The translations under genes were made by a program, and so were the position numbers. The notes under the pieces were generated by a model. It saw only the letters and a list, made by a program, of their open reading frames with translations, was not told where the DNA came from and searched no databases. From assembly GCF_020740835.1 (NCBI RefSeq), contig NZ_JAINFC010000001.1:1-64000 (forward strand): a stretch of 64,000 bases of DNA. Reading direction: 5' to 3'. The stretch is from Streptomyces sp. UNOC14_S4. GTDB taxonomy: Bacteria; Actinomycetota; Actinomycetes; Streptomycetales; Streptomycetaceae. Below are positions 6,503-63,366 of the stretch, piece after piece. How positions within the stretch are numbered: the stretch's first letter is position 1; the number at the start of each line of letters is the position of its first letter.

Positions 6503-6655
6503 CTAGTGCTCTGAGGGCACCGTTCCGTTGCCTTCGCAGATAGTGCACTCGTCCATCTCTGGCCATCGGCCTCGACAGTGCGGGCAAGGATGCTCGACGA
6601 GGTCGTATTCATGATTGCGGTTCCAAGCAGTCAGACTCGCTGCACACTTACTCAT
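6503..6655 (-). CDS. Small DnaJ-type zinc-knuckle protein
   Basis: A 50-residue protein found by reading the gap. It has a tyrosine- and acid-rich start, then CPHCRGRW and CTICEGNG, two CxxCxG-type knuckles as in DnaJ zinc domains. Its ATG overlaps the stop of the preceding gene as TGATG, so it is the last cistron of the 9409-6503 operon and likely translationally coupled. A truncated copy of its C-terminus lies at 5817-5880. Role unknown; it may assist the TGT-like protein or bind nucleic acid. Confidence 0.7.
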   Translation of the reverse strand: MSKCAASLTAWNRNHEYDLVEHPCPHCRGRWPEMDECTICEGNGTVPSEH

Positions 6656-7944
6656 CATGCGGCGTGCTCGTCAACAATCTCTGCCTCCACAATGTCCTTC
6701 TGCTGTGGTGCTTCGGCAGGGGCTGGCAGGGCCTTGGCCTGCGTGTCGTCCTCACGGCCGAAAAGCCGGGAAATCAGGCCGGTCTGTGCCTCGCCCTTCT
6801 GAGATGCCTTGATAGAGATGGAGAACGAAGTCTCATCCGCCTTGCGCTTCTTGGCTATGAGGGTGCTGAACCTGTCGATCTCCTCAGACAGAACAGGGTC
6901 GAGTTCCCCGTCTTGGTACGACTCCTCCTGTCGCGCTCGCTTGTAGACACGCCCGAGCTGAAGCTCCAGGATGCTGGCCTCGGCGTCAGCGAGCTGTTCC
7001 TTGGTACGTACTCGGATAGGCTCTTCGCGTCGCCATGCAGGTAGGGGAGTTACTTCTCCGTGCCGCTCCTCCAGGGCCTGGGTATCAACTGTCTGGGGGA
7101 CCAGATCCGCGTTCTCATGAGATGGCGTTTCCACGGATGTACTTACTCCCCTGCTCCGGGCGTTCAGCTTGTCCATGTACTGCGACCAGGCATAGATCGA
7201 GGCTCGGAGCAGTTCAGTCGAGTCGTCTGCATCGATGAGATCGACGTCGAGCCCGGCGGCAGCGAGCTCCTGACGATGGCGTGCACGCGCGCGCTCCTTC
7301 ATCTTCTTCGGGTAGCGGCGCAGCTCTCCCCCGGAGTACCAGATGGTGTCGCCGTACTGCGCGGGCGAGAGCCAGCTGGTACTCGTCACCCCGTGAAACG
7401 CGACGCGTTCCATGACGCCAGGTTTTGTGATGCCCAGGCCGAAGAGCCGGATGTCGTGCTCCTGGAGGAGGGCCTTGAGCCGTCGGACGAGGTGGTCGTC
7501 GAGCTCGTCCTTCGGGATCGCAATGTTGGGCCAGTGGGCACTGAGCTCCGCGAGGTCTTGCCCGGGGTGCCAGACGACGACTGCCTTGTCCTTGCGGGTG
7601 GCCATCCAGGTACGCCAGCCTTCCCGCTCCTCCGCCCCCAGGCTCTGTGCATCGAACTCGGTGAAGAATTCAATGCGTTCCAGGTTCGGAGCGACAAGAT
7701 TGGTGTAGTAGGAGTCGGCCATGGCGCGGAGCTCAGCGGGCAACAGGTCGCTGCTGAGACTGTAGGCGCCGGAGTCGAGGAGGATCTGTGCCCTGTCCTC
7801 GAATTGCTCGTCCAGGCGCAGGGGTTTGTCCAGCTTGCGGCGCTTACGCAGCCCCGTGTAGGAGAGGGCGACGTCTGTGTGTCCTTCGGCTGCGAGCAGG
7901 CGTCGATACGTTGGAAACTCGGTTCCTGCAAGGTAGAGCTTCAC
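6655..7944 (-). CDS. TGT/DpdA-like TIM-barrel protein
   Basis: 429 residues from a GTG at 7944 that overlaps the previous stop (GTGA). The N-terminal 250 residues resemble phage tRNA-guanine-transglycosylase-like (DpdA-type) proteins: KLYLAGTEF, ILLDSGAYSL (the position of the TGT DSGG[FY] catalytic Asp), IRLFGLGI and GVTSTSWLSPAQYG, where a DSTSW-type motif would be expected, so the second acidic residue appears to be Thr. The C-terminal 170 residues are charged and helical with a low-complexity tail. DpdA enzymes exchange guanine for 7-deazaguanine in DNA; no 7-deazaguanine biosynthesis genes are visible here. Assignment is by recalled motifs and moderate. Confidence 0.5.
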   Translation of the reverse strand: MKLYLAGTEFPTYRRLLAAEGHTDVALSYTGLRKRRKLDKPLRLDEQFEDRAQILLDSGAYSLSSDLLPAELRAMADSYYTNLVAPNLERIEFFTEFDAQSLGAEEREGWRTWMATRKDKAVVVWHPGQDLAELSAHWPNIAIPKDELDDHLVRRLKALLQEHDIRLFGLGITKPGVMERVAFHGVTSTSWLSPAQYGDTIWYSGGELRRYPKKMKERARARHRQELAAAGLDVDLIDADDSTELLRASIYAWSQYMDKLNARSRGVSTSVETPSHENADLVPQTVDTQALEERHGEVTPLPAWRREEPIRVRTKEQLADAEASILELQLGRVYKRARQEESYQDGELDPVLSEEIDRFSTLIAKKRKADETSFSISIKASQKGEAQTGLISRLFGREDDTQAKALPAPAEAPQQKDIVEAEIVDEHAA

Positions 7945-8432
7945 AGGGGCTCCGCCGTCCGCCGGGGGTCCCTGGCGTGGGTGTCGGCCTGGAGTCGGGC
8001 TTCGGCTACGAGGTCGTCCCAAGGGCGGGGGGCCTGGGTGTAGTCGGGGCGCCATTCCGGCTTGGCGAAGTTCGGCAGCGTGAGGGTAGCCGTTGGGTAC
8101 CCCTGGGCCAGCAATTCCGCGGTGACGGCCGGGTCAGGCTCGATGACCAGATTCACCTTCGTGCCTGTGCCAGAGAGCTGGCTTATGGCGTCGAGTCGGA
8201 TCTGCGTGGTGGAGCGCCGATCGGCGGCGTGCCGGTTGTGGATCACCTTCATGTGACGGTCGAGCCCGTGTAGGCGCAGCCAGCGGCGGACGGCTTCGTG
8301 GTCGATGTCATCGGAGACGAGGTAGATGCTGTGGTGCGCTGCGAGCGCGTGGTAGATGCCGCTGCCCGTCGAGATCAGCGCGTCGTTGGCAGTGTTCCGG
8401 AGAATCCCCTCGACGGTGATTGCGATGTTCAT
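7941..8432 (-). CDS. HAD-like protein lacking the catalytic DxD
   Basis: 163 residues with HAD layout: an N-terminal strand MNIAITVEGILRNT where DxDG should be, then IYLVSDD and a late VNLVIEPDPAVTAELL, followed by a proline-rich tail (PEWRPDYTQAPRPWDDL) seen in phage nucleotidase-like proteins. Both aspartates of the first motif are replaced (TVEG), so phosphatase activity is doubtful. Its start and stop overlap the flanking genes by four bases (ATGA and GTGA). Confidence 0.5.
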   Translation of the reverse strand: MNIAITVEGILRNTANDALISTGSGIYHALAAHHSIYLVSDDIDHEAVRRWLRLHGLDRHMKVIHNRHAADRRSTTQIRLDAISQLSGTGTKVNLVIEPDPAVTAELLAQGYPTATLTLPNFAKPEWRPDYTQAPRPWDDLVAEARLQADTHARDPRRTAEPL

Positions 8433-9409
8433 CGTTTCCCCCAGAGTGCCGCGCTGATGAGGGCCTGCCTCGCGTCGGCGATTGGCTCTCCGTAGAGCTC
8501 AGTGTCCGTCAGCTCCTGAGCGGTGACTCCGATGTTCTTGATTTCTCGGAGAGATGCGGCAATGCCGCGTTCCTTGGCTGACTGCCAGCGGAAGTTATGG
8601 AAATCGGAGTAGCCATCGCCGTTGAGGGTGAATGCTTGCTGGCGGCCGTCATGGATGGAGTTATATAGCTGAGCTGCCACGGCGACCGTGCGCTTCAGTT
8701 CTGCTGCCGCATTCATCCACGCTGGTGATGCCTTGGTGAGGCTGCTCAGTTGGCCTTGCAGGGAGCGGTAGCGATCGATGATGTAGCGCGCTTCCTGCTC
8801 ATCGATGTCAGCGGCTTCGGTGTATTCACTGGGATACAGCGAGCGTGGGTCTTCGGCCAGGTCGGGGGGACGGACGGTCCATGCGTCCTTCGTAAGGCTG
8901 TATGCCGCGTAAGGGTGGATGGCGGTGATGTCCTGAACGCCTCGGGCGGAGTTCCAGTAGAAGGTGACCTCGTAGGACTTGTCTCCGATACGCGTGTTGG
9001 CTGTCTGGGGCCAGAGTTCTCGCCGGAGGGAGTCGTTTATGAGCTGTGCTGTCTCAGCTGAAGCCAGGCCCGCGTAGACCGGGTTGACGCGTGTGAATTT
9101 GCTGTAGTCGACGCCGATTAGCACATCCAAGTCGCCGTTCCCTCGGTCCGCCTCCCACTGGTAGGAAATACCTGACCCTGCTATCCACACTTCAGCCCAA
9201 AGACGGAATCTTGTGACGTCTCGGAAGAAGTCTTCGAGGATGTCGATAATCCAGCTCCGGAGTTCGGGCTTGACCCGGTCACCGTCGAAGAGGTTCGGAT
9301 CGAGGTGGGTTGCGGGTTTAGAAAAGTACCCGCTCTGGCCGGTCTCCGGCTTGTCGATGTCGTGCACCGCTTCGGCGAGGTTCTTGTAGAACGCGTTGTG
9401 GCCAGTCAT
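8429..9409 (-). CDS. Nucleotidyltransferase-fold protein
   Basis: 326 residues. The segment WIAGSGISYQWEADRGN then GDLDVLIGVDYSKF matches the Pol-beta-type nucleotidyltransferase signature (GS followed by DxD), near residues 75-105; EVTFYWN may supply a third strand. The C-terminal half is helical with NFRWQSAKERG. It is the first gene of the leftward operon (NTase, HAD-like, TGT-like, zinc protein). Substrate unknown. The start ATG faces the 9410-9697 control region. Confidence 0.55.
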   Translation of the reverse strand: MTGHNAFYKNLAEAVHDIDKPETGQSGYFSKPATHLDPNLFDGDRVKPELRSWIIDILEDFFRDVTRFRLWAEVWIAGSGISYQWEADRGNGDLDVLIGVDYSKFTRVNPVYAGLASAETAQLINDSLRRELWPQTANTRIGDKSYEVTFYWNSARGVQDITAIHPYAAYSLTKDAWTVRPPDLAEDPRSLYPSEYTEAADIDEQEARYIIDRYRSLQGQLSSLTKASPAWMNAAAELKRTVAVAAQLYNSIHDGRQQAFTLNGDGYSDFHNFRWQSAKERGIAASLREIKNIGVTAQELTDTELYGEPIADARQALISAALWGKR

Positions 9410-9610
9410 GGCTGTGACGCTATGAGTGGTCCGCCAATAGGTGTTAGCGCTGAATCTCTTGACATCGCCACGCTGGGTAGTCGCCCTCAGATGTCAGCGT
9501 GGATCTACCCCTTGCGCCCTGTGCCGCTCGCGCTGCCCTTGCTGTGGACTCAGCCAGGATCCGGGGCGCGGCCGGTGTGACGCCGCCCCTGGTCCACCCT
9601 CAACCTTCCT

Positions 9611-9637
9611 GTGATGCAAGCGACTTGCTTGCATCAC
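9611..9637. promoter_or_regulatory. Palindromic operator candidate 1
   Basis: GTGATGCAAGC (9611-9621) and GCTTGCATCAC (9627-9637) form perfect 11-bp arms around a five-base centre. It lies in the 288-base divergent region between the leftward operon starting at 9409 and the rightward gene at 9698. Confidence 0.65.
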
Positions 9638-9645
9638 ATGGACTG

Positions 9646-9666
9646 GTGCAAGTACGTTGCTTGCAC
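9646..9666. promoter_or_regulatory. Palindromic operator candidate 2
   Basis: GTGCAAG (9646-9652) and CTTGCAC (9660-9666) with a seven-base spacer, the same GCAAG-N7-CTTGC architecture as the site 32 bases upstream (centre to centre, about three helical turns). It ends 31 bases before the ATG at 9698. Confidence 0.6.
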
Positions 9667-9697
9667 TCCCACTCACAGTGCCTGAGAGGTGCTCTTC

Positions 9698-10303
9698 ATG
9701 TACACCGACAGCAAGTTGACGCTGCCCTCTGACGCCTTCGCTCCCGTCACCGACACTCTGCCGTCCACCCAGCTCATCGACTGGAGCGTGGCCGTGGGAG
9801 ACAAGGAGTCGGTGGAGATCGAGCTGGACCTCCCGGTGCCGCCTCAGCAGGTCCAGGCGGGCGCCCGCTACTACGGAGGTCTTCTGACGGGCGTACCGAC
9901 CGTCCACATGGGCGACCACAGCAGCTTGGAGGCGCTGAACGCCTCCGATGAGGAGTCCGTTCTCCTCGAATCCGACATCGAGTGGTCGTGGGGCTCGCTG
10001 GCGTCCATCGGCCTGTACGCGCAGTGCATCCGAAGCGCCGTGGCTGATGCTGAAGAGGCCGTCAGGGTCGGCACGCTTGGGGAATCCGCAGCACGCAAGG
10101 CTCTGAGGTCATGGGTCAGCGCGCTCGAAAATCTGCACTACTACGCCGTCGTCGGTGACTTCGGCCTGCTGGGCCAGGTCTTCCAGATCGGCAAGATCTA
10201 CCAGGCGAGCATCGCCCTCTCGGAGACTCTGTCCGTACAGCGCGGGGGCACCCCCTACATCCCCAAGTTTGTCCAGGGCTGGGTTGACGAGCTGGGGGTG
10301 TGA
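9698..10303 (+). CDS. Hypothetical protein (upstream of AcrVA2-like gene)
   Basis: 201 residues from ATG 9698 behind GAGAGG; a GTG at 9689 lacks spacing. A hydrophilic N-terminal half with acidic clusters is followed by a helical C-terminal half (ALRSWVSALENLHYYAVVGDFG). No family recognised. It is placed directly behind the paired palindromes and overlaps the next gene by four bases (GTGA), so expression of both is probably controlled there. Confidence 0.65.
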   Translation: MYTDSKLTLPSDAFAPVTDTLPSTQLIDWSVAVGDKESVEIELDLPVPPQQVQAGARYYGGLLTGVPTVHMGDHSSLEALNASDEESVLLESDIEWSWGSLASIGLYAQCIRSAVADAEEAVRVGTLGESAARKALRSWVSALENLHYYAVVGDFGLLGQVFQIGKIYQASIALSETLSVQRGGTPYIPKFVQGWVDELGV

Positions 10304-11688
10304 TCGCCTTGGACCTCAATGAGGCGTTCAGTGCATGGCGCGACCAGCTCTCATCAGAGGCTTCCAGCGGTAGTCCCATGTACATCAATGACAAGACCAC
10401 TGCGCAGCAGCGGGTTCTTCAGGACCTCGCCCAGCGCCGGGTGGAGTTCTCGTCGCTGCTGGAGCATGTTCAATGGCTTCGGCTGATCGCTGCGCGAAAC
10501 AAGCGGTATCACTCCTGGTGGGATGAGTGCCAGGCCGTCTTGGTCCCGGCGTTGCGTGACCAGCTGATCGAGGGCTATCGCGCGTATCCCGATGCCGAAG
10601 CCAAGCTCCGCGAAGCCTACGAAGAGCAGCGCCTCATCCTGCGTGATCGTAGAGCAACGATCTTGCGCAGCCTGCACTCGCTGTCGGGCAGGTGGGCTGA
10701 GGTTGCGGAGCAACTCGGCAAGAGCCGAGCCGCGTTGGGCCAGGAGGTCGACGCCGTTCCGTCGTTCGACCCCTTCGCCGAAGTCGTTGTGCCGTTGCCA
10801 GGTCACAAGATTGAGCACCGCACTGGGATCGGTCACCCAGCGGCGTGGAAGCCTTCAGGCTGTCAGCTACTGTGGGTTTCCCACACTGACACGGCGGCGC
10901 TGGCGACCTGGTTCAGGGAGCTGACGGCTGGTGCGGAGGAATCTGGCATCAGGCTAATCATCGCGGACGTGGCAGGAAAGCTCACTGGCGCTGCAACACC
11001 GCGGCACCTCGTCACCGAGATGATCGATGCCGCAGCCCGGCCGGAGATCACGTCTGAGTTGCCCTGGAAGCCGCCGACCTTGCTCGTGCTAGCCGGGGTT
11101 TCTTGGCAGTCCATGGATGATCCCCTCGTCCGGCGTGTACAAGAACTGGCATCGCAAGCAGCAAACGGAGCAGCTGACTTCGCCGTGGCCATCCTCGTGT
11201 CTCCCAAGGTATGGCCTGAGCTTCTTCCCGCGCCAGAGCCGGGCCAGCGCCCCGATCGGGGGACCTGGGGCTGGGCTCGCGAAGCTCCTCTCGTCGTGCT
11301 GGGTCCGCCGGTCGAAGGGTTGTGCCTTCAGATCTCGCCTTACTGGGCTGGCGAGGAGCCTCCTGAGGTTCAGCATGATCTGTACTTCGGTGCCTGGCGG
11401 GATCAGGACGGCTTGTACGGCTGGTTTCGGCGTGATCCCGGTATCACCAGCTCCAAGAAGGCCGACAAGGTGCGACGCCTCGTAGACCAAGAGGACAAGA
11501 AACTCCAAGATCGAGTAGCTGGCGACGAGCCCGCAGTATCACTTCCTGCGACGGAGGACGCTCGGCAGGAGGCGCCGACCAGCAAGCAGCGCGGGGGCAA
11601 GAGGAAGAGGCCCGCACCGGTCGTCATTCCTGATGACACCACCCAGATGCGGGAGCTAGGGCTGAGGCAGTTCCTGCCTGCCGACTGA
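10300..11688 (+). CDS. Hypothetical 462-residue protein
   Basis: GTG start overlapping the preceding stop. The N-terminal 160 residues are helical and charged; the middle has alternating hydrophobic strands (QLLWVSHTD, IRLIIADVAG, PTLLVLAGVSW, FAVAILVSP) suggestive of a Rossmann-like or RecA-like core, but no Walker A is present. The C-terminus is strongly basic (KQRGGKRKRP). Family not recognised. A strong terminator follows at 11706. Confidence 0.65.
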   Translation: MIALDLNEAFSAWRDQLSSEASSGSPMYINDKTTAQQRVLQDLAQRRVEFSSLLEHVQWLRLIAARNKRYHSWWDECQAVLVPALRDQLIEGYRAYPDAEAKLREAYEEQRLILRDRRATILRSLHSLSGRWAEVAEQLGKSRAALGQEVDAVPSFDPFAEVVVPLPGHKIEHRTGIGHPAAWKPSGCQLLWVSHTDTAALATWFRELTAGAEESGIRLIIADVAGKLTGAATPRHLVTEMIDAAARPEITSELPWKPPTLLVLAGVSWQSMDDPLVRRVQELASQAANGAADFAVAILVSPKVWPELLPAPEPGQRPDRGTWGWAREAPLVVLGPPVEGLCLQISPYWAGEEPPEVQHDLYFGAWRDQDGLYGWFRRDPGITSSKKADKVRRLVDQEDKKLQDRVAGDEPAVSLPATEDARQEAPTSKQRGGKRKRPAPVVIPDDTTQMRELGLRQFLPAD

Positions 11689-11705
11689 CCGCGCCTGAAA
11701 TAGGT

Positions 11706-11737
11706 CTAGGGCCCCGGTTGCTGAACCGGGGCCCTAG
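11706..11737 (+). terminator. Strong stem-loop terminator
   Basis: CTAGGGCCCCGGTT pairs perfectly with AACCGGGGCCCTAG over 14 bp with a GCTG loop, just after the stop at 11688. It separates the 9698-11688 pair from the AcrVA2-like gene. Confidence 0.8.
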
Positions 11738-11915
11738 GCAGTCGGACCTGGTTGTCCAGATACCCGGGCCAGGACCGCAGGTCGACGACAGCATCAACGC
11801 GCCTTGCAGGACACGGAGTTGCTTTGCACGACGGGCGTAGGGCGCATCGATCAGGGACACGTCAGTGGTGTCGAACCAGCTCGACCTCAGCAGCGGACCT
11901 TACGGAGAGGATTTC

Positions 11916-13061
11916 GTGAAACGACAGCGTGAGCCGAAGGTCCCGGTGCGTCACGGACGCGCCATCACAGCCAATGACGTGAGTGAGTGCTTCACCCAGA
12001 CGTTCTCTGTCCTTGAGGATGCGCTACGAAGCGAGTACCAGTGGGTGCTGCCGGTTCTGGACAAAGTCGCTAAGGGTCAACGGGCTTCGGCGGCGCGGCC
12101 AGCAGGTTTGAGCGTGCATCAGATCGTCGATATTGTCACTCTTGCCGAGCAGGTCGGCGTGTGGAAAATGTGGGCGAGCCGGGGTCGTGTCACCTACGAC
12201 TTCAACGAGCATTTCGCCGCAGAGCTTTACCGGTCTAGCAGTGACAAGATCCCGGGTAGCATCTTCCGCCACCTTCCGCACATTAACCCTTTGGTGGTCC
12301 TGCCTGACCCATGGCCGATCAGCGGGGGCCTGGTTCGCGGCTTCTATGTCTATGGCGTTCGGAAGGTCGAGAACGGGCTCTTACAGAAGGTCTTCACCGA
12401 CGACAATTGGGACTACTTGGGGCTGCTGTTCGTTGTCGACCTTCTCGATGACGAGACCGGCGAGGTGCTGTCCCAGACCCACGTTGAGGCGATGCTCCCG
12501 ACAAGTAGGGACCGGTTCACCCTCAAGGATGCTGTGCAGTTCTCCACGGTTGAGGAGGTTGACCCAAGGGTTCAAGGGAAGGTCTCGGAGATCTGCACCG
12601 AGCTACTCCGTCCAGCCATGTCCATGCTCCTCTATCTGTGCTGCGACAACCGCGACATGGCCGAGCCGCCAGTAGCCCAGCCCAGCGTTCACAGGCGCGC
12701 CAAGGTCAAGCGGGACCGGGCACCATTCTTCGTCGAGGTGGGGTGGCGCCTAGGTCCGAAACTGCACGCCTTGCGACGCCAGGCTGGTCGCGTCCAGGAC
12801 GGGGAGAGTATTCCCTCTGGCGTTGAGCAAGCGCCTCACCAGCGATCGGGGCACTTCAAGAGAGTTCTCTTTGGCCCCAAAAGAAGCCAGGAGACCACGA
12901 AGTTCATCGCCCCGTACTGGGTCCGACTTGATCTCCTTCCCGACGGGGAAGATCCCATCACGACCGTGGTGGCGGTGGAGGAGCAGCGCCATGATCCCCT
13001 ACGGCGGCGAGGCTTGAAGACCATCGTCCGTCGTACCTCAGCACGTGGGCCTCAGCCTTGA
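11916..13061 (+). CDS. AcrVA2-like protein
   Basis: 381 residues from the GTG at 11916, five bases after GGAGAGG; GTGs at 11865/11868 have no ribosome site. Layout and motifs recall AcrVA2, an anti-Cas12a protein that acts on Cas12a expression, and its wide family on mobile elements: PGSIFRHLP near residue 114, GFYVYGV then LGLLFVVDLLDD, LLYLCC, FFVEVGWRLGPKLHALRR near 273, and HQRSGHFKRVLFGPK then FIAPYWVRL near 306. The family's RRGHW motif appears as RSGHF. Members are common outside Cas12a hosts, where the role is unknown. The call is by recalled similarity, not a search. Confidence 0.6.
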   Translation: MKRQREPKVPVRHGRAITANDVSECFTQTFSVLEDALRSEYQWVLPVLDKVAKGQRASAARPAGLSVHQIVDIVTLAEQVGVWKMWASRGRVTYDFNEHFAAELYRSSSDKIPGSIFRHLPHINPLVVLPDPWPISGGLVRGFYVYGVRKVENGLLQKVFTDDNWDYLGLLFVVDLLDDETGEVLSQTHVEAMLPTSRDRFTLKDAVQFSTVEEVDPRVQGKVSEICTELLRPAMSMLLYLCCDNRDMAEPPVAQPSVHRRAKVKRDRAPFFVEVGWRLGPKLHALRRQAGRVQDGESIPSGVEQAPHQRSGHFKRVLFGPKRSQETTKFIAPYWVRLDLLPDGEDPITTVVAVEEQRHDPLRRRGLKTIVRRTSARGPQP

Positions 13062-13143
13062 GCCGGTGATCTCGTATTGCCGATCTTGCCGTGGTTGCCG
13101 GGCGGTTTCCTCCCTTCGAACGAGATGTGGCCAAAGGAGCTTC

Positions 13144-13251
13144 ATGAAGCTTGCCGCGCCCCTAGAGTCCCGCCGTGAGCTATCTGAGTCTTCTCAAGCA
13201 GCGTCCGGTCCTGTTCTTGTGGGTCGCGGAGACGCTGTCGGTTTTTGGTGA
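13144..13251 (+). CDS. Possible leader peptide of the MFS gene
   Basis: A 35-codon ORF starts at ATG 13144 behind AAAGGAG, the best ribosome site in the area, and overlaps the first 77 bases of the MFS gene in another frame. The MFS GTG start itself has only a weak site. This arrangement could couple or attenuate efflux pump translation. It may also be fortuitous. Confidence 0.3.
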   Translation: MKLAAPLESRRELSESSQAASGPVLVGRGDAVGFW

Positions 13252-14431
13252 TCGATTTTTCACTCTTGCACTCGCGTGGACCGCTTGGCAAAGATCCGGT
13301 GCGGTCGCCATGGGTCTGGTTGTGGTGATCGAGTCGGTGCCCCACCTGCTGATCGGGGCCTTCGGCCGGAAGCTGGTCGCAAAGTGTGCCTCCTTCCGTG
13401 CCCTGGCCGTGATCGATGCCGTGCAGATCGCCGTTGTCGGGGCGATGCCCTGGCTGTGGCAGTCGGTCGGCCTGACTGGCGTGCTGGTGGTGATCGTTGT
13501 CATCGGCACGTGTGACGCTCTCACAGGCCCGAGCCTGTCGGCCCTGGCGCCGGGTCTTGTCCGAGGCGACGAGGTTCGTCAGGTAACAGCGCTGATGGAC
13601 TTCTCGAACCGTGCGACATGGTTCCTGGGCCCCGGCTCGGCTGCGGTGCTCCTCGCGGTCATGGCGGCTGAGGACTTGTTCTTGATCGATGCCGGGACGT
13701 TCGCGATCTCGGCGCTTGCTTTCTTTTGGCTCAGCCGGGCGGTGCCGGACGCTGCGCGTATCTCTGCTTCGCCGAGTGGGAAGGCGGCGAAGCCGGATGT
13801 GAAGGCGCTGCCGTTGCTGCGCGCCCGGCCATCGATCAGTTGTGCACTCCTACTGAGTGCGGTCGGTGAGTTCTGCTCCACTGTCGCGACCATCGGTATT
13901 CCTATCTGGCTGACTGACCGGCTCCACGCTGGGGCAGGCGCGTACGCGGTGGTCCTCACTGCGATGGGAATGGGTTCGGTGCTGGGCAGCTTGGTTGCTG
14001 GTCACGTCAGCCTGCCGGGTCAATTCCCGTCCGGCTTCTGCGTGGTCTGGTCGGTGCGGGGTCTGCTGCTGGCAGCGTTCGCGTACAGCAGCAGCCTGGC
14101 TGAGGTCGCCGTGGTGGCGGCCATGGGGAGCTTGTTGATCCCAATCACGTCGATCGGGCTCAACACGGAGATCGCCGCGCTCCCCGGACCCGAGAGGTTG
14201 CGGATGTTCAGTGTCTACTCCGTCAAATTGCACGTGGCCAGCATGCTGAGCATGCTGGTTTTGCCCATGGCCCTGGAGCGTGTACCCCGAGCCTCATTCG
14301 CTCTTGGAGGTGTGGCGACGGCCACGGCTGGCCTCATGGCCTGGGCAGCACTGAAGACGATGAAAGTGCGGACGGCCGAGCCCGTTGTCCTGTCCCTGGA
14401 GCCGGAGGCGGACAAGCAACTGCGTGCGTAG
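13175..14431 (+). CDS. MFS efflux transporter
   Basis: 418 residues with about 12 hydrophobic segments and MFS_3-type features: N-terminal RPVLFLWVAETLSVFGDRFFTLAL, the first-loop basic motif FGRKLVA and the DALTGPSLSALAPGLV segment typical of macrolide or siderophore exporters. It would sit in the inner membrane and export a small molecule by proton exchange; the substrate is unknown. It is monocistronic, ended by an 18-bp terminator stem. As phage cargo it would be a lysogenic conversion gene. Confidence 0.85.
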   Translation: MSYLSLLKQRPVLFLWVAETLSVFGDRFFTLALAWTAWQRSGAVAMGLVVVIESVPHLLIGAFGRKLVAKCASFRALAVIDAVQIAVVGAMPWLWQSVGLTGVLVVIVVIGTCDALTGPSLSALAPGLVRGDEVRQVTALMDFSNRATWFLGPGSAAVLLAVMAAEDLFLIDAGTFAISALAFFWLSRAVPDAARISASPSGKAAKPDVKALPLLRARPSISCALLLSAVGEFCSTVATIGIPIWLTDRLHAGAGAYAVVLTAMGMGSVLGSLVAGHVSLPGQFPSGFCVVWSVRGLLLAAFAYSSSLAEVAVVAAMGSLLIPITSIGLNTEIAALPGPERLRMFSVYSVKLHVASMLSMLVLPMALERVPRASFALGGVATATAGLMAWAALKTMKVRTAEPVVLSLEPEADKQLRA

Positions 14432-14448
14432 ATCGTGTGGTGCGCGCG

Positions 14449-14510
14449 GGAAAGCCCTCACCAGAAATCTCGGGAAGGGGAGCCGGGACTTGTTCTGGTG
14501 AGGGCTTTCC
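14449..14510. terminator. Bidirectional terminator between convergent genes
   Basis: GGAAAGCCCTCACCAGAA (14449-14466) pairs with TTCTGGTGAGGGCTTTCC (14493-14510), a perfect 18-bp stem with a 26-base loop, between the MFS gene and the leftward methyltransferase. Confidence 0.85.
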
Positions 14511-14526
14511 TGTGCGGGGAGGATGC

Positions 14527-15240
14527 CTAGGTTTCGGCTGGGCGGTGGGCTCGCAGGACCAGGGCCTGGTGGCCGCCCCCTGTGGGGTCGTCGACAGTCA
14601 GTGCCGTGTCGAGGGTCAGCTCTGCCTCCTGGAGGAGGTACCTCCAGGTCGGCAGGGCGTAGGAGTAGTACACGACGGGCAGCCTGATGCCGTCAGGGAG
14701 CGTGAGGTTGTCCACGCGGCGGCCAGGCACTTGTCCGGTGCGGAGGGCGTTGACGGTGAAGGCGAGCACGCCTCCGACCTTGAGCCGGTTTCGGATGACG
14801 GGCAGGAGCAGGGCCGGGTCGGCGTACCAGAGCGCGCCGTAGATGGAGATGCAGATGTCGATCTTGGGCAGGTGGGCTGTGGCCTCGATGGCGTCGCCGA
14901 CCTCCCATTGGATTCCGGCGAGATGCCCATATCGCTCTTGGGCCTGCTTGATGCGGTGTTGGGCGATGTCCACTCCGACGGCCAGCGCGGCTCCGTGAGC
15001 GGCCATGTAGGCGGTGTGCTCGCCGGTACCGCAGCCGAGTTCGGCGACCCGCTTTCCGCTCACGTCCCCGAGGAAGTCGTGGTCAGGCCCATGTCCGGGC
15101 CACGAGGTCCATTCGATGTGGTCTGGGACTTCAGCGGGACCGTCGCATGGCGTCAGCTGGTCGGCGATGCCGTTCCATGCGGCGGTATTCACTTGCGCGT
15201 CGGCGGAGAACGTGTGATGCAGCTGATTCGTGCGTGCCAT
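14527..15240 (-). CDS. Class I SAM-dependent methyltransferase
   Basis: 237 residues from the ATG at 15240 (behind GAGGGGAG). Motif I is VAELGCGTGEHTAYMA, followed by VGVDIAQHRI, an EVGDAIEA segment and ICISIYGALWYAD where motif IV lies. This is the small-molecule or cofactor methyltransferase type (Methyltransf_11/25) rather than a DNA methylase, as no DPPY or PC motif is seen. It lies 3' of the unknown 250-residue gene, with a terminator between them. Confidence 0.85.
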   Translation of the reverse strand: MARTNQLHHTFSADAQVNTAAWNGIADQLTPCDGPAEVPDHIEWTSWPGHGPDHDFLGDVSGKRVAELGCGTGEHTAYMAAHGAALAVGVDIAQHRIKQAQERYGHLAGIQWEVGDAIEATAHLPKIDICISIYGALWYADPALLLPVIRNRLKVGGVLAFTVNALRTGQVPGRRVDNLTLPDGIRLPVVYYSYALPTWRYLLQEAELTLDTALTVDDPTGGGHQALVLRAHRPAET

Positions 15241-15267
15241 GGGTGACTCTCCCCTCGTGGTGTGACA

Positions 15268-15295
15268 GGGAGCCGGGGCGATTGCCCCGGCTCCC
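15268..15295 (-). terminator. Stem-loop terminator
   Basis: GGGAGCCGGGGC, GATT loop, GCCCCGGCTCCC: a perfect 12-bp stem after the stop of the leftward 250-residue gene and before the methyltransferase start. Confidence 0.75.
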
Positions 15296-15308
15296 CTTCT
15301 GGCCTCGG

Positions 15309-16061
15309 TCACTTACGACCCATGGCCTTCACGCGGTCCTGCCACTCGTCCCCCATCGCACCCAGTTCGCTGGTGAAGCGGGCGAGGTTCGTGCCGTACT
15401 CCAGTACCGTGCCGCCCAGCATCTCGGCGGATGCCTGGCACCCGTGGACGAGTCGGCCGCCGAGTGCGGCGTGAGCGAGTACCGACTCGCGCCGACGGTC
15501 CTCGTTGAACCATCCGCCGTGGTACAGCTCGTCGACCTGCTTGCCCTTGTCCTCGTCGAATCCGAAGACGACCGAGGTGGCGATCGGGAAGAACCAGCAC
15601 GGGCCCACGTTCGCGATGCGCCCGGTCAGCTCGACCTTGTTCAGCGCCATGATCGTGGCGGCCTCGCGCAGCGCCTTGACTTCGTGCTCGGTGACGTCCA
15701 GCTTGCCGACGCCGACGTAGTCGTCCCGGAAGATGTGCGCAGCGACCTGGTAGCCAGTCTTCAGGACCTTGGCCGGGTCGTTGGTGGACCGGCCGTGGGC
15801 CTTGATGAAGTTGCTGGCCAGCTGCTCGATGGTCTGCTCGCTGGTTTCCGTGACACCGAGGAGTTCGGAGCGGACCAGCTCCCAGTCCACGAGGAGCCAC
15901 GTGGGGTTCTCGTAGCGGAAGAAGTACCGTGCGGTGTCGATGGTGATCTGGTTGCCGTCGACGGTGATGCCGTCGATCTTGTTCCAGGTCGGGGTGAAGT
16001 CCTCCGGCAGTTCGACGGAGAACACGGTGTGGTTGGTGCGTTGTGTGGTTGCGGTCGTCAT
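15309..16061 (-). CDS. Hypothetical protein
   Basis: 250 residues, soluble, with a well-formed ORF and normal composition (FEVRYENP-like N-terminus; YFFRYENPTWLLVDWELVR; NVGPCWFFPIATSVVFGFDE). No family recognised. Its position between an XRE regulator and a methyltransferase suggests a small conserved Streptomyces cassette, with the regulator upstream. Function unknown. Confidence 0.65.
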   Translation of the reverse strand: MTTATTQRTNHTVFSVELPEDFTPTWNKIDGITVDGNQITIDTARYFFRYENPTWLLVDWELVRSELLGVTETSEQTIEQLASNFIKAHGRSTNDPAKVLKTGYQVAAHIFRDDYVGVGKLDVTEHEVKALREAATIMALNKVELTGRIANVGPCWFFPIATSVVFGFDEDKGKQVDELYHGGWFNEDRRRESVLAHAALGGRLVHGCQASAEMLGGTVLEYGTNLARFTSELGAMGDEWQDRVKAMGRK

Positions 16062-16221
16062 GATGACGGCGCCTCCCAGTTGTCGAGGACAAGTGCACCT
16101 GAGCCGAGAAGAGATCCCTGCTGGTCTGCGGGGGTGTCTCGGGCTCGCTATCGAGTGAACCGTCGTCCTGGCTTCTGGGGAATTGCCAACTCGTGTGCCA
16201 AATCGTCTGCCAAACTCGGCC

Positions 16222-17502
16222 TTACGAAGGGGTGGCGTCCCAGTGCATGAGCACCTCCTCGACTTCCAGCGCCTGGCGGTGATGCCGCAGTGCGGTCAAC
16301 ACCACCTGTCCTCGTTCGCTGGCGCGTGACGAGGGTACCGATGCCGTCATCTCGAACATCCGAGTGGCCTGGACGGCGGCTTCCTCGATCTCGTTGGCGT
16401 CCAGCAGCGCGGTGACCAGCCACGACAGGTAGAGGGAGTACTCGCGTACGTGCGTGGGGTCGTAGTTGTCGAGAACACGGCGCAGCAGGGGGACGGCGCG
16501 AAGGGGACGATGGAGCTGGGTGGCCACCCTGGCTTGCATCACTTCCTGTTCAGGGATGTCCACCCAGTACAGCCACAGCTTGTCGTTGGCCTCTTCGGGG
16601 TCCGCGTCGTGGATCTGCTGCATGGCGTCGCCGATGTGCCGGAGGGCGCTGCGGTCGTCTCCGGCTAGGGCGTTCACCCATGCGAGGCGCGCTGCGGTCA
16701 GTGACTTGGCGACCAGGGGGACGTCGCTCCCGGCGGCTGCTTCGGCTGTGCGTACGAGTTCGACGCCTCGGTGGGGGTTTCCGGTGTTGGCCTGCCAATA
16801 GCCCCAGGAGCCCAGCAGGTGGGCGGTCAGAGCGCCGTCTTGAGCCTGGCGTGCGGCTGACGCTCCGAGGCGGAAGAGGGGCTCCGGGTTGACCGCGCCG
16901 CCGGTGTCGGTGGCCACCCATCCGGCCAGTTGTGCCATCTCTGCCACGGCTGTGAGGAGGCGCTTGCCGACCTTTTCGGTGTGGCAGGTGCCGTTGTAGA
17001 GGTTGATGGTCCGGCGGAGTTCGCGGACGCAGGTCTCCACCAGGTCTCCACCGGCTAGGACGTCGTCAGCCAGGCGCAGGCCATGGACACGGCGCAGGAG
17101 AGCTTCGGCGTCGTCCTTGCCCACTCGCCGCCCGGTGTGGGTGGCGAGTGGGGAGAAGGGGTCGTCGGGTGGGACGAGGGAGGCGAGGACTTCGGCTGGT
17201 GTGACGGTGGTGAGGTGTCCGATCCTTCTGGCTGCCTTTGATGCTGCCTTCGCCGCTTGGAGCCGTGTGACCGGGATGTCCAGCACGTTGGCCAGGTGCG
17301 GGAGCCAGAGGGGTCCGGCTGTTCGTCCCTCGTACTCGACCTCCCATCGCCACACTTCGGTGCGGGTCATGGTTTTGCGGCCGGAGTCGTCGATGAGAGC
17401 CTTGGCGAGATCGTCCTCGGTCCAGCCTTTGGCTTCGCGCAGCATGCGGATCAGTGGTCCCAGCCGCTCACCGGATGATGGGTGTCCAAGCATCGCGTCC
17501 AT
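16222..17502 (-). CDS. XRE-family regulator with TPR-like C-terminus
   Basis: 426 residues from ATG 17502 behind AAGGGG. The N-terminal helix-turn-helix (LGPLIRMLREAKGWTEDDLA, then TRTEVWRWEVEYEGRT) is followed by about 330 helical residues with TPR-like repeats (LLGSWGYWQANTGNPHRG, ARLAWVNALAGDDRSALRHIG, LYLSWLVTALLDANEIEEA). Such proteins are common actinomycete transcription regulators. It probably controls the adjacent 250-residue and methyltransferase genes; a role in lysogeny control cannot be excluded. Confidence 0.8.
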   Translation of the reverse strand: MDAMLGHPSSGERLGPLIRMLREAKGWTEDDLAKALIDDSGRKTMTRTEVWRWEVEYEGRTAGPLWLPHLANVLDIPVTRLQAAKAASKAARRIGHLTTVTPAEVLASLVPPDDPFSPLATHTGRRVGKDDAEALLRRVHGLRLADDVLAGGDLVETCVRELRRTINLYNGTCHTEKVGKRLLTAVAEMAQLAGWVATDTGGAVNPEPLFRLGASAARQAQDGALTAHLLGSWGYWQANTGNPHRGVELVRTAEAAAGSDVPLVAKSLTAARLAWVNALAGDDRSALRHIGDAMQQIHDADPEEANDKLWLYWVDIPEQEVMQARVATQLHRPLRAVPLLRRVLDNYDPTHVREYSLYLSWLVTALLDANEIEEAAVQATRMFEMTASVPSSRASERGQVVLTALRHHRQALEVEEVLMHWDATPS

Positions 17503-18196: not shown

Positions 18197-18706
18197 TCAG
18201 TCCTTTGGTGCGGTCTTGTCGAAGTGCGCCTTGCGTACTGCGTTGGCTACCGGACAGAAGTCGCAGAGGTAGCGGTCTTTCGGGGAGCGGTACTTAGGGA
18301 GTCCAGCTACCTTGCGCTCCTTCGCAGTGCCAGGAGTGAGTCGTACCTTGTCGCTCTTCCAGTCGGAGCAGTCCAGACTGCGGTTGTGGCGCTTCCAGCA
18401 GGCCATGGCGTCGTCCTGAAAAGTTGCCTTCGTGTTGTAAAAGTCGCCGCCAAGGCCATCGCTGCCTCCCTTAGCGAGATTATGGTTGATCTTCTTGATG
18501 ATCTCGTCCTTGTAGTGCGCCTTCTCCCAGTACGCCTTCGGGACCTTCAACAGTTGCCCTCGATGCTTCGCACCGTCAGGGAATTCGTGGCGGTTGACGA
18601 GGTTGTCAAGCAGGTGGTCCTCGCGGGGGTGCCCATCGTGATCGGGCAGCTCCTCGATGGTGCGGCAGTTATGGCACATCAGCAGGCGGATGTTCTCTTC
18701 GGTCAC
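18197..18706 (-). CDS. Cys-rich phage protein
   Basis: 169 residues, GTG start. An N-terminal MCHNCRTIEELPDHDGH and a C-terminal YLCDFCPVANAVRKAHFD provide two CxxC pairs, suggesting a zinc-bound fold; a further C-N9-C pair lies between them (ACWKRHNRSLDC). Immediately upstream of the HNH gene. No enzymatic motif recognised. Confidence 0.6.
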   Translation of the reverse strand: MTEENIRLLMCHNCRTIEELPDHDGHPREDHLLDNLVNRHEFPDGAKHRGQLLKVPKAYWEKAHYKDEIIKKINHNLAKGGSDGLGGDFYNTKATFQDDAMACWKRHNRSLDCSDWKSDKVRLTPGTAKERKVAGLPKYRSPKDRYLCDFCPVANAVRKAHFDKTAPKD

Positions 18707-18729
18707 AGACCTTCCCCTTACACGGATAT

Positions 18730-18760
18730 CGGCTCGCCCCTCACGCTATGGGGCGAGCCG
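18730..18760 (-). terminator. Stem-loop terminator
   Basis: CGGCTCGCCCC (18730-18740) pairs with GGGGCGAGCCG (18750-18760), nine-base loop, 29 bases after the stop of the Rpf/LysM gene. Confidence 0.8.
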
Positions 18761-18788
18761 AAAGGTCTGTTAACGGCCGGATCGAGGG

Positions 18789-19412
18789 TCAGCGCATCCC
18801 GGCATCGAAAGAGCAGACGGGCCATGCTCCGGGCCCCTGGTCTGCCAGCACCTTTTCAGCGATGCGTATCTGCTCCTCGCGGGAAGCGTCCTGCGGCATG
18901 CCGTTTCCTCCGTGCTCTCGCCAGGTACTCAGGGAGAACTGGAGACCTCCGTAGTATCCATTGCCCGTGCTGATCGACCAGTCACCAGAGGATTCACACT
19001 GGGCGAGGCGATCCCACATACCGTTGCGCGATTCCGTGTCCGTCGCCTTCGGTTTGGCGTGGCGTGGAGTGGTTGTCTTCGCCTCATTCTCGCCCGTGTA
19101 GGGCTTGCGGTGGCCCGTGGGCAGCGCAAGGCTCTGGCCCAGCCGGATGAAGTTGGGGTCGGGTCCGATGATTCCTTTGTTGATTTCGTAAATGCTCTGC
19201 CAGTGGCGTGTATCACCGAGTTGGCGTTGTGCGATGAGGCTGAGGGTTTCGCCAGTCTGGACGGTGTGCGTACTCGGCGCACTCTTTTCAGGGGCTTCCG
19301 ATCGGGTGGTAGTGGTTGGCTCCGCGCGGGTGGCGGATGCCTGTCCGGTGGATACAGCCAGTGCGGTAGCGGTGATTGCGGGCAGGAGTGCTATGGCAAG
19401 CTTGCGGAGCAT
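18789..19412 (-). CDS. Secreted LysM plus Rpf/transglycosylase-like protein
   Basis: 207 residues from ATG 19412 (behind GAAGGGAG). It has a Sec signal peptide (MLRKLAIALLPAITATALAV, cleaved near ASA), a LysM domain (THTVQTGETLSLIAQRQLGD to GQSLALP, about 45-95) and a C-terminal transglycosylase-like Rpf domain (MWDRLAQCESSGDWSISTGN then GYYGGLQFSLSTWREHGG). Host Rpf proteins cleave peptidoglycan glycan strands to wake dormant cells or spores. Placed 3' of the holin gene but between its own terminators, it may aid lysis or act during infection of resting hyphae. Confidence 0.85.
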   Translation of the reverse strand: MLRKLAIALLPAITATALAVSTGQASATRAEPTTTTRSEAPEKSAPSTHTVQTGETLSLIAQRQLGDTRHWQSIYEINKGIIGPDPNFIRLGQSLALPTGHRKPYTGENEAKTTTPRHAKPKATDTESRNGMWDRLAQCESSGDWSISTGNGYYGGLQFSLSTWREHGGNGMPQDASREEQIRIAEKVLADQGPGAWPVCSFDAGMR

Positions 19413-19451
19413 GCCGCTCCCTTCTCTTGTGTGCAGGGGGTGCGAACGCGG

Positions 19452-19485
19452 CACAGCCCCCGGCTGTGTGATGCCGGGGGCTGTG
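19452..19485 (-). terminator. Stem-loop terminator after the holin gene
   Basis: CACAGCCCCCGGC (19452-19464) and GCCGGGGGCTGTG (19473-19485) form a 13-bp stem with an eight-base loop between the membrane protein gene and the Rpf/LysM gene. Confidence 0.8.
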
Positions 19486-19490
19486 GGATG

Positions 19491-19748
19491 TCAGAGCTGG
19501 ACGGAGTTGTCGGCCGGGATGAAGCTCTGGGGGGCAGGTGCCGGAAGGCTGGCGATCTTGTGGTTGGCGGTGACGCGGGTACGGGATTCAAGGCCAATGA
19601 TCAGGACGAGCAAGGTGTTAAGCCCGCCGATGACCACCTCGTTGGCCTCGACACCAGCCAGCGCTGGTACCACGTGGACAAGCGCGGTGAGGAGGCCAAC
19701 GATGACCGTCCGAGTCAGGATGGGGTTGTCCTTAATGTACTGTCGCAT
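19491..19748 (-). CDS. Holin-like membrane protein
   Basis: 85 residues from ATG 19748 behind GGAGATT. Two hydrophobic segments (TVIVGLLTALVHVVPALAGV and VIGGLNTLLVLIIGLES) and a short charged C-terminus fit a class II holin, which permeabilises the cell membrane at the end of infection. It sits 3' of the endolysin, in the usual lysis order. Confidence 0.7.
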   Translation of the reverse strand: MRQYIKDNPILTRTVIVGLLTALVHVVPALAGVEANEVVIGGLNTLLVLIIGLESRTRVTANHKIASLPAPAPQSFIPADNSVQL

Positions 19749-19750
19749 CG

Positions 19751-20056
19751 TCAATCTCCTTCAGATATACGGTGGTAGAGCAGTGAGGCTGGCGGCTCGG
19801 GCTTCTCAGGGGTGAGTCCAGCAGCGAGGAGTTGGTACTCATATCCGGCAGCCACGCCGCGCCAGTAATTGAGGAGGGCTTCCACCTCACGCAGCTTCCC
19901 TGCGAGGTCTTCTCGCCATTGGGCGATATCGTCCATGTGCTCGCGCCGTGTTTGGTTGTAGCCATCGCGGCGCATGCGCATTCCCTGGAAAATGCTGGTG
20001 ATGAGAGACCCGAGACCGGCACTGAGCACTGCCGCTAGCGCGGTCCATTCGGTCAC
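19751..20056 (-). CDS. Membrane-anchored lysis-cassette protein
   Basis: 101 residues with one N-terminal membrane segment (WTALAAVLSAGLGSLITSIF) followed by a charged coiled coil (REHMDDIAQWREDLAGKLRE). The topology suggests a second holin-like or a spanin-like accessory protein. It overlaps the endolysin stop by four bases and is directly followed by the holin gene. Confidence 0.65.
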   Translation of the reverse strand: MTEWTALAAVLSAGLGSLITSIFQGMRMRRDGYNQTRREHMDDIAQWREDLAGKLREVEALLNYWRGVAAGYEYQLLAAGLTPEKPEPPASLLYHRISEGD

Positions 20057-21156
20057 TGCATCAGCCGCTTCCAGGTCACCGGGCCGACATCGCCGTCAGC
20101 GTCGCTGCCACTCCAGCCCTGATCCCGCTGGAAGGCTCGTACGCCTGCCCGTGTGGTGTCGCCGTAGTAGTCGGACGGGCCGTAGGAGAGGTAGCTGCCG
20201 TAGCCGTGTCGGATCAGGGCCTGGTCAACAGCGAGGACCTGGGGCCCGCTGGCTCCGTAGCGGACTGCGTCCCGGCCGGGGTACTCAGTGCTGGACGAGC
20301 CGAGCAGCTGGTGCAGGGTGACGGAGCCGGGGATGCCGTCCGCGTCCTTACCGCTGTAGCCGAGTGACCTCTGGTAGGCGGCGTACGCCTGGGTATCGGC
20401 GTCTGTCCAGCGTGGGCCGGGGCCCTCGGAGTACGCGCTGCCGAACCCCGCGGCGACGAGGGCCTGGCCGACGCGGGTGACCTGACTGCCGTATGCGCCA
20501 GGGCCGTAGGTCAGGCCGTCGATGGTGACCTCGTAGTGGCCCAGGCCGTCGGACGGGGGCGGCGGCTTCGGCTTGCTGGGCTGGCCGTCGCCCGGCGTTG
20601 CGTCGAAGATCTTGCTCGGGTTGATTGCGCCCGGATCGCCGTGATCGTTGCCGGGGATGTTGGCGTGGCAGTAGTGGCCGCCCTCCTCCTCCCAGGTGTC
20701 GCGGTCGCGCCGGGAGTCACCTGGGTACTCCGGTGGGGCTCCCATGGGGAATGTATCGGGGATGTCCCAGGACCTGATGGCCTTCATCATCGCAACGAAG
20801 TTCGGTCCGGGGGTCCAGTAGTCGGTGAAAGGGCTCGCGGCTCGGGCCAGCACTTCGATCTGGATACATGCCGTCCCGGTGCGGTTGGTCCTCGTCGAGC
20901 CGTCATTCCTCAGAGCGCGGGCGGACTGGTCGAGCGGGCCGAACTGACCGAGGCGGTCTGTCGTCGGGTCGTACAGAAAATGCGGCTGTACCTCCTCCTC
21001 GATGAGGCCCGCGGCGACATTGTCGAAAGACTGGTCACCATTGCCGGTCTCGGTGCTGTGCCAGACGACACGTGCGGGCAGCTCCGGACTGTCCATGTCG
21101 CCACCGATGCTGCCGTTTCCCAGGTCTTCGGCCTCAGCGACCCATCGTGTACCCAT
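20053..21156 (-). CDS. Endolysin: PGRP-type amidase with two peptidoglycan-binding repeats
   Basis: 367 residues. The N-terminal 170 residues look like an N-acetylmuramoyl-L-alanine amidase of the PGRP/Ami-2 type: VVWHSTETGNG, HFLYDPTTDRLGQF, CIQIEVL and a late HANIPGNDHGDPGAI supplying the zinc ligands. Two related C-terminal repeats (GPGPRWTDADTQAYAAYQRS..GKDADGIPG and GPSDYYGDTTRAGVRAFQRD..GSDADGDVG) are PG-binding domains separated from the amidase by a proline-rich linker. It degrades the host wall for release. Confidence 0.9.
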   Translation of the reverse strand: MGTRWVAEAEDLGNGSIGGDMDSPELPARVVWHSTETGNGDQSFDNVAAGLIEEEVQPHFLYDPTTDRLGQFGPLDQSARALRNDGSTRTNRTGTACIQIEVLARAASPFTDYWTPGPNFVAMMKAIRSWDIPDTFPMGAPPEYPGDSRRDRDTWEEEGGHYCHANIPGNDHGDPGAINPSKIFDATPGDGQPSKPKPPPPSDGLGHYEVTIDGLTYGPGAYGSQVTRVGQALVAAGFGSAYSEGPGPRWTDADTQAYAAYQRSLGYSGKDADGIPGSVTLHQLLGSSSTEYPGRDAVRYGASGPQVLAVDQALIRHGYGSYLSYGPSDYYGDTTRAGVRAFQRDQGWSGSDADGDVGPVTWKRLMQ

Positions 21157-63225: not shown

Positions 63226-63366
63226 ATCGTGATCCTTCTGTGTTGGCGATATGAACCGGTCTCGCGCTGTTACTGGCACCCCCTTCCCCTCGGAGTCACC
63301 AGGGCGCACTCAAGCCTGTTCGCCATCAGTTTCGATCACGGGCATACCAATGTGTTAAGACAGCAA

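Follow-up and report, generated by a model that had tools for sequence, protein, structure and literature searches.

A distant AcrVA2-family gene in a BRock-like prophage of Streptomyces, and its proposed role as a nascent-chain silencer of a gene other than cas12a

Introduction

What would a relative of the Cas12a inhibitor AcrVA2 do in a Streptomyces phage? AcrVA2 of Moraxella bovoculi is reported to recognise the sequence LSKT at the N-terminus of nascent Cas12a and thereby to cause decay of the mRNA, by a machinery that is unknown; it is presented as the first prokaryotic inhibitor on record to destroy the mRNA of a defence gene via the nascent peptide (PMC13131331). A conference summary further reports that AcrVA2 down-regulates tagged Cas9 and Cas12f, a programmable loss (PMC12908700). 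In Streptomyces sp. UNOC14_S4, a gene at 11916-13061 was proposed in an earlier note to encode an AcrVA2-like phage protein which, Cas12a being rare in Streptomyces, might act in the same way on another host gene. We analysed the whole stretch of 64,000 nucleotides in which it lies (hereafter the window), asking whether the kinship is real, what kind of element carries the gene, and what the product could act upon.

Results

The gene and its start site

The frame closing at 13061 on the forward strand carries all the motifs on which the proposal was based, namely SIFRHLP, FVVDLLDD, VGWRLGPKLHALRR, RSGHFKR and WVRL. Its longest reading begins at a GTG at 11865 and gives 398 aa. The GTG at 11916 was preferred, because a GGAGAGG sequence is found 5 nt upstream of it (Table 1). 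The 398-aa reading serves for residue numbering throughout; its G+C contents at the three codon positions (0.67/0.43/0.73) are consistent with a real gene.

A perfect hairpin separates the AcrVA2-like gene from an overlapping gene pair upstream. The segment 11690-11750 has a folding energy of -38.5 kcal/mol (z -5.35), and the hairpin is a probable factor-independent terminator lacking a U-run; it was absent from the output of a scan for terminators with a U-run. No promoter-like site was returned by a sigma-70 scan of 9400-13400. As the hairpin parts the gene from the pair, the AcrVA2-like gene probably has its own promoter and is transcribed separately.

Table 1. Features of the window around the AcrVA2-family gene and along the phage backbone.
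Feature	Position	Strand	Evidence
Large serine recombinase, probable integrase, near contig start	69..2105	-	Resolvase PF00239, E=1.3e-26
DpdA-like transglycosylase	6655-8055	-	phrog_887; tblastn to BRock gp36
Left phage core block, remaining genes	7941-8432, 8429-9409	-	tblastn to BRock gp38, gp39
Gene without family, first of overlapping upstream pair, 204 aa	9689..10303	+	ORF, codon bias
Gene without family, 462 aa, 4-nt overlap with preceding gene	10300..11688	+	ORF
16-bp perfect hairpin, 4-nt loop, between upstream gene pair and AcrVA2-like gene	11704..11739	.	RNA folding
GGAGAGG ribosome-binding site for GTG 11916	11904..11910	+	Read from sequence
AcrVA2-family gene, 381 aa, GTG start	11916..13061	+	ORF; phrog_6160; PDB profile match; model Z 13.1 to 7ci1
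MFS-type transporter	13175..14431	+	PF07690, E=2.8e-8
Methyltransferase	14527-15312	-	Methyltransf_25
Insert gene without assigned family	15309-16061	-	ORF
HTH regulator	16222-17502	-	phrog_10886 transcriptional regulator, E=6.8e-39; HTH_31, E=6.9e-4, below its cut-off
Lysis block right of insert	18197..21156	-	Relatives of BRock gp42, gp43, endolysin gp40
Baseplate J	40438-41946	-	PHROG/Pfam; BRock relatives
Tape measure	44856-47861	-	PHROG/Pfam; BRock relatives
Tail sheath	49491-51089	-	PHROG/Pfam; BRock relatives
Major head protein	62233-63309	-	PHROG/Pfam; BRock relatives

The product is a distant homologue of AcrVA2

Used as a single query, the window protein matched the family phrog_6160 (PHROGs v4) with E=1.9e-12 (48 bits, residues 87-355). 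The AcrVA2 sequence of PDB entry 7ci1 (residues 63-318) matched the same family with E=1.2e-55, so that phrog_6160, which bears no function name, is the AcrVA2 family. Pfam, NCBIfam and PADLOC yielded no family for the window protein, and a phmmer search of the PDB with this single sequence gave no match at E<=10. An alignment of 20 sequences (A1: the window protein, 8 from IMG/VR, 10 from plasmids and 1 from a phage), 19 of which match phrog_6160, was turned into a profile and compared with PDB chains. AcrVA2 (7ci1/7ci2) was the sole distinct match at E<=1, with E=7.6e-16, and it was collinear, profile positions 64-335 being paired with residues 63-318 of the 323 in AcrVA2. With hhalign, a 19-row alignment from which the distant relatives had been left out (A3) scored 67.6% (E=5e-5) when AcrVA2 was the only sequence on the other side, and 99.5% (E=2.2e-22) when AcrVA2 was taken together with three distant relatives. 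By itself, a profile built from 14 close sequences (A2) did not reach AcrVA2 in the PDB. The link to the AcrVA2 PDB entry thus needs either the distant relatives or a profile-profile comparison. In the printed 7ci1 alignment, SIFLNLP, FVVDTDTDD, IGERLGSEVRR and PHIRRGHWHGYWQG appeared in matching order, as the motif order read in the earlier note had implied.

Structure prediction led to the same protein. The AlphaFold2 model had a mean pLDDT of 66.1 and a pTM of 0.66, with much of residues 262-355 below 50. Its best three PDB chains in Foldseek were all AcrVA2 (7ci2/7ci1, E from 6e-6 to 2e-5; next unrelated chain, 1.4e-2), at low global TM-scores of 0.29-0.41. VIA-align 2 gave Z scores of 13.1 for 7ci1 (226 residues, 4.0 Å) and 12.8 for 7ci2, against 3.2 for the entry that followed. 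Both programs thus put AcrVA2 first, and the protein is predicted, from a model of moderate confidence, to have the AcrVA2 fold.

Could the resemblance have arisen by chance, without true kinship? The empty single-sequence search of the PDB and the failure of the close-clade profile would be in keeping with this. It is refuted by the common membership of phrog_6160, by the PDB profile and hhalign E-values, and by the gap in model Z score between AcrVA2 and the next entry, and we regard it as having practically no chance of being right. From sequence comparison, we conclude that the product of 11916-13061 is homologous to AcrVA2, as a distant member of its family, with a profile relation that extends over most of its length. 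The AcrVA2-like assignment made earlier was therefore upheld by the family match, the PDB profile, hhalign (the profile comparison having been set beforehand as its test) and the fold, a different fold having been named as the outcome that would speak against it.

Identity to AcrVA2 amounts to 39 of 231 aligned positions (17%). It is spread as 12/53 in residues 285-345, 15/76 in 111-200 and 9/68 in 201-284, with 2/24 up to residue 110 and 1/10 beyond 345. Conserved positions, defined in the window protein as those where at least 18 of the 20 aligned sequences have one residue, number 25, and AcrVA2 keeps the residue at 15 of them (W103, Y111, P130, L137, P138, L258, C259, D264, G293, G297, P324, R327, G329, H330 and G337). 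The C-terminal module among these, G-x3-G ... P-x2-R-x-G-H-x6-G, is largely common to AcrVA2 and to the members on Streptomyces, Thermus and Lactobacillus elements; two Thermaceae members have A in place of the G before H in P-x2-R-x-G-H. As the motif is kept over such a range, the module likely supports an activity common to the AcrVA2 family. Given the low overall identity, the activity of the Streptomyces member may nevertheless differ from that of AcrVA2.

The gene lies in an insert of a BRock-like prophage

The window belongs to a 67,296-bp contig (C1) of an 8.2-Mb Streptomyces assembly in 1,076 contigs. Its nearest phages are BRock, GiJojo, LuckySocke, Alone3 and pSt2308. In a translated comparison, 33 of the 76 window ORFs had relatives in the first 100 kb of BRock (Borockvirus, NC_048650), spanning 6.6-63.8 kb of the window. 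Virion, lysis and DpdA-region genes are shared in mostly the same order, except that the lysis block is arranged differently and that one short window match sits elsewhere in BRock. A tail fibre gene was also recognised in the window (PHROG/Pfam). We concluded that the contig is of the prophage type and mostly follows the gene order of BRock, a Streptomyces phage with a contractile tail, which supports the phage setting that had been proposed; the host phage is probably a temperate, Borockvirus-like Streptomyces myophage. The serine recombinase near the contig start fits a temperate phage, and recombinases 27-31% identical to it occur in the stretches of four IMG/VR contigs bearing an AcrVA2-like gene.

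The best relatives of the AcrVA2-like protein are found on plasmids, which raised the question whether the window itself descends from a plasmid. This was rejected, since the virion genes match BRock-type phages. A megablast against plasmids gave one 250-base match for 1-25000 and none for 30000-54000.

Some features of the backbone were recorded in passing. The C-terminal part of the serine recombinase matches DUF4096 of IS4/5 transposases, an odd combination of domains. The DpdA-like transglycosylase and two linked genes (6655-9409, reverse strand) are also present in BRock and GiJojo, which suggests deazaguanine DNA modification by the BRock-type phage group. A Radical SAM protein (57536-58639, reverse strand), which weakly matches QueE-like proteins of phages (E 1e-6), may be connected with the DpdA-like gene.

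In the window, the gp39 homologue and the lysis block are 8.8 kb apart; the gp39-to-endolysin gap is 64 nt in BRock, 71 nt in GiJojo and 71 nt in pSt2308. This interval holds an insert of roughly 8 kb (9689-17502) with seven larger genes, the AcrVA2-like gene among them. None of the seven had a match in the first 100 kb of BRock, the last 12.5 kb of that genome lying outside the comparison, and the AcrVA2-like matches from the phage collection included no BRock record. Neither the 204-aa nor the 462-aa protein encoded upstream of the AcrVA2-like gene matched Pfam, PHROG or PADLOC. Among 246 Streptomyces genomes, the 462-aa protein was found in the window's own genome only, and no relative of it was detected in plasmids or, by a pattern scan, in viral contigs. 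The idea that this pair (9689-11688) forms a defence or conjugation module was dropped, as no family match supported it.

Relatives are found on large Streptomyces plasmids

Beyond the window, relatives of the AcrVA2-like protein were recovered from 9 IMG/VR loci (15 with a broader query), from 21 plasmid records and from one Lactobacillus phage with two accessions. Scans of viral contigs with the Lactobacillus, NBC_00582 and Thermus members recovered the Lactobacillus phage itself and nothing more. In a search of the genus, 6 of 295 Streptomyces genomes matched, including that of the window, and 4 were kept as carriers; a further search of Streptomyces genomes gave 6 loci. The two matches dropped (L015 in G031, E 2.1e-5; L016 in G060, E 6.5e-4) lie in frames that read as unrelated large proteins, NACHT/STAND-like as far as can be told from reading the frames alone.

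The tree groups the window protein with 8 Streptomyces sequences (98/98 support), on 4 plasmid records of 293-438 kb (L018, L019, L024, L025) and 4 genome contigs of 139-375 kb. Since this clade includes plasmid records, the subfamily is common to the window phage and to Streptomyces plasmids. The nearest relatives, at 50-57% identity, are on large Streptomyces plasmids or contigs, and among the matches listed all those at this level of identity are in Streptomyces. The AcrVA2-like gene is thus encoded by a mobile element here, and relatives lie on plasmids and IMG/VR contigs.

Two copies are unusual. G224 has a second copy, on its largest contig (L017, G224:C1), which is a distant member whose translation reads without P-x2-R-x-G-H, and the copy of Streptomyces diastatochromogenes NRRL B-1698 (G683; L048, 8001-8810) is without the 5' part.

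When 76 window ORFs of at least 80 aa (first 20 kb) were compared with the flanks of 30 relatives, over 4-12 kb per locus, matches were limited to the AcrVA2-like gene, frames antisense to it and the recombinase; with same-clade loci, only the gene and its antisense frames were in common. Among 10 plasmid loci, the stretch viewed included an annotated DNA methylase in 6 and a DUF4007 gene in 4, counts that come from stretches of varying length and have no background rate beside them.

Carriers have no detected Cas12a

A Cas12a profile gave no match in the window's genome, nor in any of the 9 distinct carrier genomes, some of them draft assemblies. These 9 correspond to 10 carrier records, two of which were counted as one assembly, and include the genome with the shortened copy (G683) and one with a distant member (G632). 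The search itself works, since it found Cas12a in one of 396 Actinomycetota genomes (G519, E=4e-132), the other 395 giving no match. G519 is not one of the two genomes matching phrog_6160 in an equal-sized sample. The Cas12a match of G519 (G519:C100; L055, L056) reads through in-frame TGA codons, and the contig is perhaps a contaminant with another genetic code. In line with the rarity of Cas12a in Streptomyces stated in the earlier note, no Cas12a target was found among the carriers. As Cas12a was not detected in the host, another bacterial gene is probably the one silenced.

Type I-E CRISPR-Cas in carriers

The genome of the window carries type I-E genes at two loci, one with matches to cas7e and cas1 (C102) and one with cas3, cas7e, cas5e, cas6e and cas1e (C174). 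A type I-E Cas7 above the curated cut-off was present in 6 of 9 carrier records, these 6 being every tested genome whose same-clade copy is intact; three of the clade members (L018, L024, L025) are plasmid records whose host chromosomes lie outside the Cas7e counts. The background in the genus was 100 of 295 Streptomyces genomes for Cas7e above the cut-off (114/295 at E<=0.001) and 80/295 for Cas1. Comparisons of carriers with this background, all of them post hoc and uncontrolled for relatedness, gave the following. Within the sample, Cas7e was found in 4/4 carriers versus 96/291 other genomes (Fisher P=0.013), or in 3/3 carriers when the window's genome was left out (P=0.037), and Cas1 in 4/4 versus 76/291 (P=0.005). 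Over all Streptomyces carriers, Cas7e was found in 6/8 (binomial P=0.02), and in 5/7 without the window's genome (P=0.049). Counting the two dropped loci (L015, L016) as carriers would change the 4/4 for Cas7e in sampled carriers to 5/6.

The exceptions were G683, whose copy lacks the 5' part and whose genome matched neither Cas1 nor type I-E Cas7, G684, which belongs to another clade and has a Cas7e match that stays under the cut-off, and G632, which comes from a different bacterial family. The association with type I-E is weak, small and post hoc, and we treat it as a lead, not as a result.

Discussion

The explanation that we favour, by somewhat more than an even chance for its two parts taken together, is that the AcrVA2-family gene is an accessory gene (a 'moron') of the phage and that its product silences an mRNA co-translationally as AcrVA2 does, with the target shifted from cas12a to another host gene, most likely a defence gene. 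The Streptomyces protein would, as AcrVA2 does, bind a short peptide at the N-terminus of a single host protein while this protein is leaving the ribosome, and binding would then trigger decay of the mRNA of that protein. The activity held in common with AcrVA2 would come from the conserved C-terminal module (G-x3-G ... P-x2-R-x-G-H ... G), and the part that binds the peptide would be adapted to a target that is not cas12a, with the type I-E cas genes as leading candidate. The most economical reading would be that the Streptomyces branch keeps the activity of AcrVA2 and differs in peptide specificity. The suggestion of another host gene in the earlier note is compatible with our data. Its account stands as regards homology, fold, phage setting and a host without detected Cas12a; the lowering of an mRNA is a proposal, and the weak association with type I-E CRISPR-Cas was the only lead to a target. 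In the literature searched, we found no functional data on actinobacterial members of the AcrVA2 family.

Other readings start from the same ancestry. The protein might have kept the AcrVA2 fold and be a plain binding protein, which sequesters or blocks a host protein and leaves its mRNA intact. Crystals of AcrVA2 have also been obtained with a Cas12a peptide that is internal rather than N-terminal, and its decay machinery is described as unknown (PMC13131331); the low identity of the Streptomyces protein to AcrVA2 likewise leaves room for such a change. The C-terminal motif, kept from Streptomyces, Thermus and Lactobacillus elements to AcrVA2, would rather suggest an activity beyond peptide binding, and we hold plain binding to be possible, with the odds clearly against it. 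The nascent chain acted upon could also belong to the element itself, phage or plasmid, instead of the host, as the presence of the family on large plasmids as well as on a prophage would allow. Within the 4-12 kb flanks compared, same-clade loci share nothing but the AcrVA2-like gene and the frames antisense to it; a common target could lie elsewhere on the elements, and we hold this reading to be unlikely. More unlikely still is that the protein continues to inhibit Cas12a, on elements that sometimes enter hosts having it. Membership of phrog_6160 together with AcrVA2 speaks for it; the carrier genomes devoid of Cas12a matches, the single Actinomycetota genome with one (itself without a phrog_6160 match), and the confinement to Streptomyces of the relatives at 50-57% identity, among the matches listed, speak against.

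AcrVA2 itself (7ci1, 7ci2) resembles the window protein in being homologous over most of the chain, with the same predicted fold, with conserved W, P, G-x3-G and P-x2-R-x-G-H-x6-G positions, and in being phage-borne, as reported in PMC7913775. It differs by the 17% identity, by the host, which here has no detected Cas12a, and by the close relatives, which here are on Streptomyces plasmids. AcrVA2-like genes on other phages are already known. They have been published on huge phages (PMC7162821), and ORF43 of Shewanella phage vB_SbaS_Y11 is described as a putative AcrVA2 relative, a likeness that we take from its description; there, the host is a gammaproteobacterium, docking is reported, and a Shewanella genome with a type I-E system is mentioned alongside (PMC10846135). 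For the Streptomyces branch, no description was found in the literature searched, a search with preprints and most subscription journals outside its range.

Returning to the retargeted silencer, its most specific form would be that the Streptomyces branch disarms type I-E systems through the nascent N-terminus of a Cascade subunit or of Cas3, AcrVA2 then being one member of a general class of reprogrammable nascent-chain silencers of phages and plasmids. We put this forward as a conjecture that is doubtful as it stands. If co-translational silencing were true of relatives in hosts without Cas12a, mRNA decay triggered by the nascent chain would be a general weapon of mobile elements, and every branch of the AcrVA2 family would offer a naturally occurring silencer of a specific gene. 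This can be tested directly in laboratory Streptomyces, given the carriers, their type I-E content and the plasmid/prophage pair (~55% identity).
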